Assembly: GCA_025360005.1 (NCBI GenBank)
Contig: JANYDA010000049.1
Location: 62,001-126,000, forward strand
Length of the DNA stretch: 64,000 nt
From: Fibrobacteria bacterium
GTDB taxonomy: Bacteria; Fibrobacterota; Fibrobacteria; UBA11236
Direction of reading: 5' to 3'
Positions within the stretch are counted from its first letter, which is position 1. Every line of letters starts with the position of its first letter. The position numbers were made by a program, and so were the translations under genes. The notes under the pieces are model-generated. The model saw only the letters and a program-made list of their open reading frames with translations, had not been told where the DNA came from and ran no database searches. Shown in pieces: positions 27,376 to 30,361 of the stretch.

Positions 27376-28251
27376 ATGGCCCATCCCAAACGCAGCCTGC
27401 CCGGCAACGCGCCCGGCGATTTGTACGTGGATGATACCTGCATCGATTGCGATACCTGCCGTTGGATGGCGCCGGGAACCTTCCATCGCACCGCCGGGCA
27501 ATCGGCCGTGCGCGTCCAACCGGAATCGTCCCAAGATCGCCGCCTGGCCCTGCTGGCATTGACGGCCTGTCCTACCGCCTCCATCGGCACGCGCGCGCGC
27601 GCCCCGGAAATGCCCGCCATCCGATCGGCCTTTCCCGTGCCGGTCGCGGAAGAGGTGTATCATTGCGGTTACCACAGCGCGAAGTCCTACGGGGCCGCCG
27701 GCTACTTCATCCGCCGCGCGGAAGGCAACGTGCTGGTGGATTCCCCCCGCCGCTCGGAAACGCTGGCGGCCCGCCTGCAAAGCCTGGGCGGCGTGCGCTG
27801 GCTGTTCCTGACCCACGGGGACGATGTGGCCGACCATGATTTCTGGCGGGAGCGGTTCGCCTGCGAACGCATTATCCACGCGGGAGATGCGGGGGGTTCC
27901 ACGCTGGCGGCGGAACGGATCCTCGTCGGGGAGCAAACCGTTGAGCTGGCGCCGGATCTGCGCATCATTCCGGTACCCGGCCATACGCAAGGCAGTTGCG
28001 CTCTGCTTTACCGGGATGCCTTTCTGTTCACGGGCGATCATCTGGCCTATTCGCAACGGCGCGCCCATTTGTACGCATTCCGCGACGCTTGCTGGCATTC
28101 CTGGCGCCAGCAGACGGAGTCCATGGAGAAACTGCGGGGTTACCCTTTTGAGTGGGTATTGCCGGGACACGGCCGTAGATTCCATGCGGGTAGGGTGACG
28201 ATGCGGGAACAATTGGAGACGTGCATCGGTTGGATGCGGGGCCCGCGGTGA
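27376..28251 (+). CDS. Ferredoxin / metallo-beta-lactamase fold fusion protein
   Basis: A 291-residue protein with an N-terminal single-cluster ferredoxin-like domain (CIDCDTCRWMAP near 23-34, and a later CP near 65) fused to a metallo-beta-lactamase hydrolase domain. The lactamase part shows a degenerate metal motif THGDDVADHD (the usual form is HxHxDH), then PGHTQGS, FTGDH and LPGHG. Fusions of this type occur in cyanobacteria, plants and assorted environmental bacteria; substrates are unknown. The Fe-S cluster could sense redox state or supply electrons. It is divergent from uvrA with about 145 bases between them. Confidence 0.85.
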   Translation: MAHPKRSLPGNAPGDLYVDDTCIDCDTCRWMAPGTFHRTAGQSAVRVQPESSQDRRLALLALTACPTASIGTRARAPEMPAIRSAFPVPVAEEVYHCGYHSAKSYGAAGYFIRRAEGNVLVDSPRRSETLAARLQSLGGVRWLFLTHGDDVADHDFWRERFACERIIHAGDAGGSTLAAERILVGEQTVELAPDLRIIPVPGHTQGSCALLYRDAFLFTGDHLAYSQRRAHLYAFRDACWHSWRQQTESMEKLRGYPFEWVLPGHGRRFHAGRVTMREQLETCIGWMRGPR

Positions 28252-28282: not shown

Positions 28283-28432
28283 CTAGGTCGTTGTCCGGCT
28301 TTGCCAGACGCGGAACAGGAGGACGGCGACGGCGGCGACCAGGAACAGATGCGCCAGGCCGCCCATGGTCATGGATGTCGCCATGGACACCAACCAGAGA
28401 GCCATCAACACAGCGCAAATCGCCCAAAGCAT
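28283..28432 (-). CDS. Small two-helix membrane protein (Lmo0937 family)
   Basis: A 49-residue protein starting at the ATG at 28432, with AAGGGG seven bases upstream. Two membrane helices (LWAICAVLMALWLVSMATS and LAHLFLVAAVAVLLFRVW) and a polar tail match the widespread Lmo0937-type mini membrane proteins, often stress-induced in other bacteria. The A+T-rich stretch upstream (28440-28520) probably holds its promoter. The role is unknown. Confidence 0.8.
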   Translation of the reverse strand: MLWAICAVLMALWLVSMATSMTMGGLAHLFLVAAVAVLLFRVWQSRTTT

Positions 28433-28574: not shown

Positions 28575-28602
28575 TTGACATGATCGCGAATTTGAGTATA
28601 CT
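28575..28602 (+). promoter_or_regulatory. Strong sigma-70-like promoter
   Basis: A consensus TTGACA, a 16-base spacer and TATACT at 28597-28602. It is the best housekeeping-type promoter in the window. The start would fall near 28609, almost at an ATG at 28610, and a terminator follows 190 bases later, ahead of the gene at 28819. Confidence 0.75.
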
Positions 28603-28609
28603 TCCTACC

Positions 28610-28741
28610 ATGACCATCCCGGCCCAGCAAACCACCCTATCCAAATCAGCTTGGCGTTCTTGTCGCGTGCCGATGGAATATCAATCCGTGAGCATCGCCA
28701 TGCATACCCGCTATCGGGGAAATAGGAGCGGGTCGCTTTAA
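28610..28741 (+). CDS. Possible leader peptide (doubtful)
   Basis: A 43-codon open frame from an ATG at 28610, directly at the predicted transcription start, to TAA at 28739. It has no ribosome site and would have to be translated leaderless. The end of the frame runs across the two pairing segments at 28706 and 28725, the place where a stalled ribosome could switch the RNA fold. No codon run that would reveal an amino-acid sensor is obvious, although the end is Arg-rich. It may equally be non-coding. Confidence 0.3.
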   Translation: MTIPAQQTTLSKSAWRSCRVPMEYQSVSIAMHTRYRGNRSGSL

Positions 28742-28792
28742 TACACAGGTAGATAACCGTGTAATCAAGAAGCCCGCTCCCCAGAGCGGGCT
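28706..28792 (+). promoter_or_regulatory. Attenuator-like leader with mutually exclusive hairpins
   Basis: Four segments can pair in two ways. ACCCGCT (28706-28712) pairs with AGCGGGT (28727-28733); AGCCCGCTC (28771-28779) pairs with GAGCGGGCT (28784-28792) to make the terminator. Alternatively GGAGCGGG (28725-28732) pairs with CCCGCTCC (28773-28780), which would destroy the terminator stem. A separate small hairpin (TACAC...GTGTA, 28742-28763) sits between them. This 1:2/3:4 versus 2:3 arrangement is that of classical attenuators. The downstream methyltransferase-like gene starts 19 bases after the T-run. Confidence 0.5.
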
Positions 28793-28799
28793 TTTTTTT
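28771..28799 (+). terminator. Intrinsic terminator ahead of the methyltransferase-like gene
   Basis: A perfect 9-bp stem AGCCCGCTC/GAGCGGGCT with a 4-base loop, followed directly by seven further T residues. This is the cleanest rho-independent terminator in the window. It lies between a strong promoter and the ribosome site of the gene at 28819. Confidence 0.9.
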
Positions 28800-28818
28800 G
28801 TTTTTCGAGGAGGTTGCG

Positions 28819-29610
28819 ATGACAACGTCTGCATTGGGAACGCATAACGCGCGCAGCCCGGAGCTTGCGGATCCGATCGGTTCCGGAGAAGCGGTGATTA
28901 ACCGGTTCGGGGCCGATGGCAAGCCGGATGTTTACGGCGTCGCGGACTTTTTGGCCCAGGCTTTCCTTCCGGAGGATGCCACCATGGCATCCTTCCTGGT
29001 CAATGCCCTGTACCTGTTCGGAGACAATACCCTGATCGCCTACGGTGGCGCGCCGCCCGGGGTAACCGCTGAGTTAACCCGGCTCGGCCACAAGGTGGCA
29101 GGCGCAGGCCTGGCCCGGGAACGCTCTCCCGTCCGGGAGGGCCGCTATGACAGGGCCCTGTTGCTGACGCAAGCCTTGGGACGCGGATCCGACGCGGAAA
29201 TCCTGCGCCGCCTCCGGGCCCTCCGGAGCGCGGTGCGGCCGGGCGGTCTGGTGTGCTTCCATATCTTCGATCGGGACCGGGCCTGGTTCCTGGACGGGGA
29301 GCGCAGCATTTCGGCGCGCGGGCGCAACGTCGTATTCCGCCTCCGCTTCGATCCCGCCAGCGGCCGGATTTCCGCGCAACCTTCCCATAACGGGCGAGAG
29401 GCCGACAATCCGGGGGCCGGGAGTTGCGTGGCTAAGATGACCGTGAAAACCTGGAACCGTTCCGAGCTGGAAGCCTTATTGCGCCCCGTGGGACTGCGGT
29501 TGGAACGCGTGTATGCGGACTGGAGCGGAGCCGGCCCGGACGCGGGCGAATCCGGAAGGCTGATAGTGGTCGCCGCCAAACCGCGGCGCGCCCGCAAGGC
29601 GATTGTATGA
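28819..29610 (+). CDS. Degenerate SAM-methyltransferase-like protein
   Basis: A 263-residue protein starting at the ATG at 28819, which has an excellent ribosome site (GAGGAGG). Its layout is that of a class I methyltransferase: a first strand DNTLIAYGG where the SAM-binding glycine loop should be (the GxGxG motif is not kept), a YDRALLLTQAL strand, LRSAVRPGGLVCFHIF (the post-motif region typical of these folds) and a C-terminal ELEALLRPVGLRLERVYADW. Because the SAM loop is altered, it may be inactive or bind another ligand. Expression looks controlled by the attenuator-like leader before it. Confidence 0.6.
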   Translation: MTTSALGTHNARSPELADPIGSGEAVINRFGADGKPDVYGVADFLAQAFLPEDATMASFLVNALYLFGDNTLIAYGGAPPGVTAELTRLGHKVAGAGLARERSPVREGRYDRALLLTQALGRGSDAEILRRLRALRSAVRPGGLVCFHIFDRDRAWFLDGERSISARGRNVVFRLRFDPASGRISAQPSHNGREADNPGAGSCVAKMTVKTWNRSELEALLRPVGLRLERVYADWSGAGPDAGESGRLIVVAAKPRRARKAIV

Positions 29611-29842: not shown

Positions 29843-30361
29843 ATGAAACCAATACTTGGACTAATCACACTCGTGGCGATGAAAACGGCATTTTCCTGTC
29901 CCATCAGGACCGTACAAGTTTCCGATAAATTTTTGAACGCATCCAATCAGGGCTGGATCGCATTTGCGGATCGCTACCGACCTTTCGCGGAAGGCCATAA
30001 GTCCTTTTCGGATCGCCACGGCCCTTCGCAGGATCGATCGGGTTGGGAATTGGGGAACAGTCCGGAAATCAAACCTCCGCGAATTCCCGCCTCGGCGAAC
30101 AGCTTCGACCCGGTGCCTTGCGAATTTACCCTGGATGACAAAGAGGGAGGGAAAGTCTGGAGCGCCGATTTCGGGGGCGTGACGGACAATTCCATAACCG
30201 AGGTTGCGGCGACAACTCCGGCACCGGTTCCGGAACCTTCGACGCTTTGCTATGGCGTGTTGGGCCTGCTCTTGATGCTGGTCGGCGTGCGCGCCAAGTC
30301 TTCCCGGAGCGACGGGAAAATCACGGACCGGAGCTTGGCGCCAAACGGCCCGCTAACCTGA
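29843..30361 (+). CDS. PEP-CTERM sorting domain protein
   Basis: A 172-residue exported protein with a weak N-terminal signal (MKPILGLITLVAMKTAFS). Near 138 it has a C-terminal PEP-CTERM signal: VPEPSTL, a hydrophobic stretch (YGVLGLLLMLVGV) and a basic RAKSSRS. Such proteins are cut and anchored by an exosortase during extracellular matrix production. Unusually, about 15 residues follow the basic cluster. The mid part has no recognised domain. AAAGGGGAGA gives a good ribosome site. The end overlaps the convergent tolC-like gene by 41 bases. No exosortase gene is in view. Confidence 0.7.
   Translation: MKPILGLITLVAMKTAFSCPIRTVQVSDKFLNASNQGWIAFADRYRPFAEGHKSFSDRHGPSQDRSGWELGNSPEIKPPRIPASANSFDPVPCEFTLDDKEGGKVWSADFGGVTDNSITEVAATTPAPVPEPSTLCYGVLGLLLMLVGVRAKSSRSDGKITDRSLAPNGPLT

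Follow-up and report, generated by a model that had tools for sequence, protein, structure and literature searches.

Leader-peptide attenuation is a textbook mechanism. Attenuators of the trp, leu, thr and ilv type (Rfam Leu_leader, Thr_leader and Trp_leader) and the Fibrobacterota locus described here have in common a short frame, an antiterminator strand, an intrinsic terminator and a gene with its own ribosome binding site. In contrast to these attenuators, the Fibrobacterota leader has no conserved 1:2 helix and no codon run, appears to be leaderless, precedes a gene outside amino-acid biosynthesis and falls under the Rfam gathering score.

Leaderless leader peptides also have precedents. 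In Sinorhizobium meliloti, the leader-peptide ATG is reported to be the very start of the trpL RNA (rnTrpL; PMC7298713), as is predicted for the Fibrobacterota leader; the S. meliloti leader differs in having 14 residues, in preceding trpE(G) and in belonging to another phylum. Mycobacterial leaderless Cys-rich small frames upstream of operons have been proposed as cis regulators (PMC4633059; Canestrari et al. 2020, as cited in PMC9094748). These resemble the Fibrobacterota leader in being leaderless small frames with a proposed cis role and differ in their Cys clusters and their Cys-related or hypothetical targets, the comparison being one of arrangement. The Fibrobacterota leader adds to this known type. 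In the open-licence literature, no publication was found on leader-peptide attenuation in Fibrobacter, and the one publication found there that combines EamA, leader peptides and attenuation is a drug-resistance review.

Layout of the locus

The window, a stretch of 64,000 nucleotides, comes from genome G000, and the comparison set comprised six genomes of the genus, i.e., the window genome and five relatives. The following features were located.

28575..28602, + strand: sigma-70 type promoter, TTGACA-16-TATACT, 11 of 12 consensus positions, the spacing being identical in 6 of 6 genomes
28575-28580: TTGACA -35 box, with a 16-nt spacer before the -10 box
28597-28602: TATACT -10 box
28610..28741, + strand: putatively leaderless small frame of 43 codons plus TAA, MTIPAQQTTLSKSAWRSCRVPMEYQSVSIAMHTRYRGNRSGSL; ATG at 28610, TAA at 28739-28741
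28652..28657, + strand: Trp-Arg codons, leader peptide residues 15-16
28697..28702, + strand: Ala-Met codons, residues 30-31, a tentative sensing codon
28707..28732, + strand: 1:2 hairpin of the earlier note, CCCGCTAT/ATAGGAGCGGG, not conserved and probably outside the switch
28725..28732, + strand: antiterminator strand (strand 2), GGAGCGGG
28743..28762, + strand: small hairpin between strand 2 and the terminator
28767..28799, + strand: intrinsic terminator with T-run, 13 pairs including the A-T flank
28773-28780, + strand: terminator 5' arm, CCCGCTCC, common to terminator and antiterminator
28784-28791, + strand: terminator 3' arm, GAGCGGGC
28792-28799, + strand: T-run of eight T
28807..28813, + strand: GAGGAGG, ribosome binding site of the downstream gene as read from the sequence
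28819..29610, + strand: methyltransferase-like gene (263 aa); the product has a class I methyltransferase fold, in which the first SAM motif is degenerate

An earlier note on this DNA had described a consensus promoter before the leader, a perfect terminator with a T-run, an 8-bp antiterminator helix (GGAGCGGG:CCCGCTCC) and a ribosome site upstream of the gene that starts with ATG 28819, and all of these were found. Its small frame was regarded as possibly leaderless, which agrees with an ATG that lies 7 nt past the -10 box and leaves no space for a ribosome site. Upstream of the leader, positions 27376-28251 (+) encode a 4Fe-4S ferredoxin domain fused to a metallo-beta-lactamase fold, and a similar frame is found upstream of the leader in all six genomes; a 49-aa DUF5670 small protein (28286-28432, -) lies between this gene and the leader. 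Downstream, positions 29843-30361 (+) encode a protein with a C-terminal PEP-CTERM signal, slightly under the Pfam cut-off.

We consider that the locus is very probably a ribosome-controlled transcription attenuator, an assessment that covers the attenuator and not the identity of its signal. RNA polymerase would start at or beside the A of ATG 28610, and the leader peptide would be read from a leaderless message. Ribosomes reaching the stop codon at 28739 would cover GGAGCGGG; CCCGCTCC would then be free for its 3' arm, and the terminator so formed would end transcription near 28799. If no ribosome loaded, or if one stalled ahead of strand 2 by more than about four codons, GGAGCGGG would pair with CCCGCTCC once the latter was made. 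This antiterminator would block the terminator, and the methyltransferase-like gene would be transcribed and translated from its own ribosome site.

Antiterminator and terminator folding

Dinucleotide shuffles seldom equalled the pairing of the terminator 5' arm with the 75 nt before it: 1 of 300 did so in the window, and 0, 1, 0, 8 and 3 of 300 in the five relatives. The minimum free energy fold of 28610-28818 was also stronger than that of shuffled sequences (z -3.3, 0 of 200). In ViennaRNA predictions, transcripts ending at the 5' arm formed the full set of 8 antiterminator pairs in every genome (6 of 6), with or without a ribosome stalled upstream, and with a ribosome at the stop codon (mask to 12 nt past the stop), which is predicted to cover strand 2, the terminator was the only one of the two folds left, again in 6 of 6. 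Antiterminator and terminator, having one arm in common, are predicted to be mutually exclusive in every genome of the set. These foldings, together with the conservation described below, support the attenuation by alternative folds that the earlier note had proposed, and with it the small, possibly leaderless frame.

The terminator was the lowest-energy fold of full-length transcripts in 6 of 6 genomes without a ribosome (ViennaRNA) and in 4 of 6 with a ribosome stalled upstream. Because the terminator is preferred in full-length transcripts, the switch must act during transcription, relying on the order of synthesis. The stability of the terminator in the ribosome-free whole transcript would also suit a terminator with constitutive partial readthrough and without regulation, but the antiterminator geometry, and with it the alternative pairing of the 2:3 helix and the terminator, is conserved in 6 of 6 genomes, and we regard such an unregulated terminator as highly unlikely.

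One component of the switch in the earlier note, the 1:2 hairpin, was not retained. This 7-bp hairpin is present in the window, where 19 of 300 shuffles were equally good, and in none of the five relatives did it rise above chance, 52 to 284 of 300 shuffles doing equally well there. The 1:2 anti-antiterminator helix of the classical four-segment trp-type attenuator was therefore borderline in the window and at chance level in the relatives.

A strict terminator scan covered 464 kb of the window genome, i.e., the window plus 400 kb, the contig with a gene for an EamA transporter being included knowingly. An upstream copy of the strand-2 type was found at 2 of the 10 terminators detected, those of the methyltransferase-gene leader and of the EamA leader. 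In this genome such terminators are rare, these 10 in 464 kb (window and L117-L136) being all that the scan for strict perfect stems returned.

Conservation within the genus

The order promoter, frame, strand 2, small hairpin, terminator, ribosome site and gene is kept in 6 of 6 genomes. The genus leaders have a TTGAC-like -35 box (TTGAAA in G002), a 16-nt spacer and TATAMT; the end of GGAGCGGG is exactly 6 nt from the stop codon in all six, and the terminator arm starts 29-32 nt past this codon. With regard to covariation, which the earlier note had proposed as a check of the helices, the outcome was divided. The small hairpin keeps its pairing with different letters in the relatives (ACACAGG/CCGTGT, AAAAGG/CCTTTT and AACGGG/CCCGTT), as judged by eye since the MAFFT alignment misplaces one row, whereas the helix of strand 2 with the 5' arm (2:3) barely varies among the six (by eye, 11 bp in G003 and a G-U pair in G005) and showed no covariation. 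A search of the six genomes for the pattern of strand 2 followed by the two arms returned the target locus in 6 of 6 and two other places (EamA leader); the backward control gave 0. Orthologues of the methyltransferase-like gene were found in 6 of 61 genomes and in 6 of 167 genomes of the phylum, all of this genus, and a contig search for the gene gave 4 loci, in the same relatives.

The earlier note had recognized no riboswitch in the sequence, and Rfam agrees: no riboswitch or leader family was found at or above the gathering threshold, the best match below it being Leu_leader (31.3 bits vs a gathering score of 50). A ligand-binding RNA (riboswitch) or a protein-bound RNA, with the frame incidental, would likewise have two exclusive folds. 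However, besides the lack of an Rfam match at the threshold, no conserved aptamer-like domain was seen in the alignment and strand 2 is fixed 6 nt before a stop codon, and we consider this explanation extremely unlikely.

The leader peptide

Each of the six genomes places the ATG 6 or 7 nt after the -10 box, and from this spacing we infer the start site of a leaderless small frame. In the six genomes there were 21 promoter matches with a spacing of 6-7 nt vs 3 with a spacing of 12-13 nt, 11 of the 21 being the methyltransferase-gene and EamA leaders themselves. Several other leaderless promoters start, by eye, ArsR- or TetR-like regulator genes (L052, L056, L063, L064, L067 and L068).

The small frame has 43-48 codons with fixed start and stop positions in the six genomes, and the absence of in-frame stops across all six leaders was equalled by 7 of 1500 shuffles. 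The predicted peptides terminate in Ser-Gly-X-Leu (6 of 6). Conserved codons, which the earlier note had suggested looking for in this frame, were found as two dipeptides, Trp-Arg and Ala-Met, each kept in all six leaders; at least two such dipeptides occurred in 19 of 20000 within-peptide residue shuffles, a figure inflated by relatedness. A protein-family search with the small frame gave only a chance herpesvirus match (E 0.019).

Conservation of the frame and of both dipeptides would also be expected of a functional small protein, in which case the terminator would merely separate the methyltransferase-like gene from it and the GGAGCGGG copy would represent Ser-Gly codons. However, the peptide sequence changes quickly, identity to the first sequence being 29-53%, and the codon differences in three leader pairs (20 to 27 nonsynonymous vs 7 synonymous) suggest little selection on it. 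Moreover, unrelated leader peptides also end with the GAGCGG copy, those before other targets having been found with the GAGCGG pattern. A small protein is very improbable, and the ribosome-controlled attenuator remains our preferred explanation.

Similar leaders before other genes

In a protein search (E 1e-20), 11 of 21 genomes had the EamA transporter, namely all six genus members, four genomes from a sister genus and one from the order, and a second leaderless leader precedes the transporter in all 11 (L049, L050, L051, L061, L062, L066 and L078-L082). By eye, all 11 show a leader peptide and a terminator, with a strand of GAGCGG or GCGGGC type close to the stop; the perfect pairing is only 6 bp in G001 and G010. 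The -10 box rule held in 7 of 11, G006-G009 having only CATATT-like boxes (by eye). In a scripted test 8 of 11 were scored, the other three being without a perfect terminator stem, and the shuffle counts were 0 to 35 of 200. Trp is found 11-16 residues before the last residue in 11 of 11.

Ile-rich leaders with the same chassis, classical attenuators in their composition, precede citramalate synthase in five genomes that belong to the family (L017, L018, L021, L022 and L025); the two proteins tested were above the TIGR00977 cut-off. These leaders, which served as a positive control, contain 23 Ile where base composition predicts 9.9, a number reached in 0 of 1500 shuffles. The -10 box rule held for four of the five, and their shuffle counts in the scripted test were again 0 to 35 of 200. 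For the EamA and the citramalate leaders alike, these box-rule and scripted controls were weak.

A pattern search of the phylum, which was not a census, gave matches in 34 of 167 genomes. The same chassis was seen in candidate attenuator leaders elsewhere in Fibrobacterota: a Trp-Trp leader before trpE, two Arg-containing leaders before argD, leaders of gltB and ilvB, and a Cys-rich leader before a cystathionine-synthase-like gene (L084, L085, L086, L087, L088, L090 and L092), the last in the genus holding most genomes of the class, which we take to be Fibrobacter. As they were selected by the GAGCGG pattern, these leaders demonstrate that the chassis exists and not how frequent it is. Other matches, for example L083, L089, L096-L104, L106 and L108, were judged by eye to be coding regions, convergent genes or repeats and were rejected as attenuators. 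The earlier note had pointed out that the target in the window is not an amino-acid biosynthesis gene; this puzzle stands, with the chassis serving amino-acid genes elsewhere in the phylum.

The methyltransferase-like protein

A Pfam search with the protein encoded in the window gave no match, and one of the six orthologues reached Methyltransf_11 (E 0.011). The profile of the protein matches the bacillithiol methyltransferase NmbA (PDB 9ri2) over the C-terminal half (E 5.7e-5). The predicted structure (pLDDT 72, from five sequences) resembles natural-product methyltransferases, the best being CcbJ (4hh4; E 8.6e-12, TM about 0.5), and the predicted fold is common to NmbA, CcbJ, CypM and CgnL. 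The segment of the first SAM motif reads IAYGGAPPGV and is without the usual acidic-GxGxG pattern of this motif, whereas NmbA keeps VLDIAxGxG (both patterns from PMC12719100). The word "degenerate", used for this gene in the earlier note, is therefore fair, and SAM binding by the protein appears doubtful. Homologues of BshC turned up in 5 of 6 genus genomes and, overall, in 10 of the 13 that were searched, but none reached the family cut-off. Since this is so and the profile match spans the C-terminal half only, the link to NmbA is weak.

The sensed signal

We regard the shortage of an aminoacyl-tRNA as the most probable signal. The leader of the methyltransferase-like gene has no codon run; several residues are mildly enriched, with P values of 0.0013 for Lys, 0.007 for Ser, 0.007 for Thr and 0.008 for Met (12 Met vs 5.8 expected), of which only Lys would pass a simple correction for 20 residues. 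The conserved Met of Ala-Met lies 9 to 16 codons ahead of the Ser of Ser-Gly, and its position, like that of Trp in the EamA leaders, would fit a ribosome that stalls without covering strand 2. On the basis of the conserved Ala-Met and its position, Met is tentatively the best-placed candidate among the aminoacyl-tRNAs that may be sensed in the methyltransferase-gene leader, and Trp, by its position, is a tentative candidate in the EamA leaders. Cys was attractive because of the NmbA match and of its enrichment relative to proteins (12 against 2.4), but it was rejected: relative to base composition there was no enrichment (12 against 9.1, P 0.17), and another frame has equally many.

The trigger of the attenuator might instead be nascent-chain arrest by a small molecule or drug, or a general drop in leaderless initiation, rather than tRNA charging. 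The absence of a codon run and the Trp kept at similar positions in 11 of 11 EamA leaders are consistent with such a trigger, and without a 1:2 hairpin, unloaded messages should antiterminate too. In contrast, the codon runs of the sister leaders fit their biosynthetic targets, and we regard this version as unlikely, though it carries some weight. A broader proposal, which we hold to be rather doubtful, is that Fibrobacterota use one leaderless chassis (GAGCGG at the leader end, a small hairpin and a CCCGCTC terminator) for amino-acid and non-biosynthetic genes, the methyltransferase and EamA leaders sensing leaderless translation itself or a codon-keyed peptide arrest (Met and Trp, respectively) and not one starved tRNA. 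Shortage of a single aminoacyl-tRNA remains our preferred signal.

Significance

An attenuator of this kind adds a phylum for which no published leader-peptide attenuator was found in the open-licence literature, and it would tie leaderless translation to attenuation in a lineage distant from the known cases. Two orphan genes, those of the degenerate methyltransferase and the EamA transporter, gain a testable regulatory input. The phylum also provides a set of natural variants of one chassis, with leader peptides that are Ile-rich, Trp-Trp, Cys-rich, Arg-containing or unassigned.
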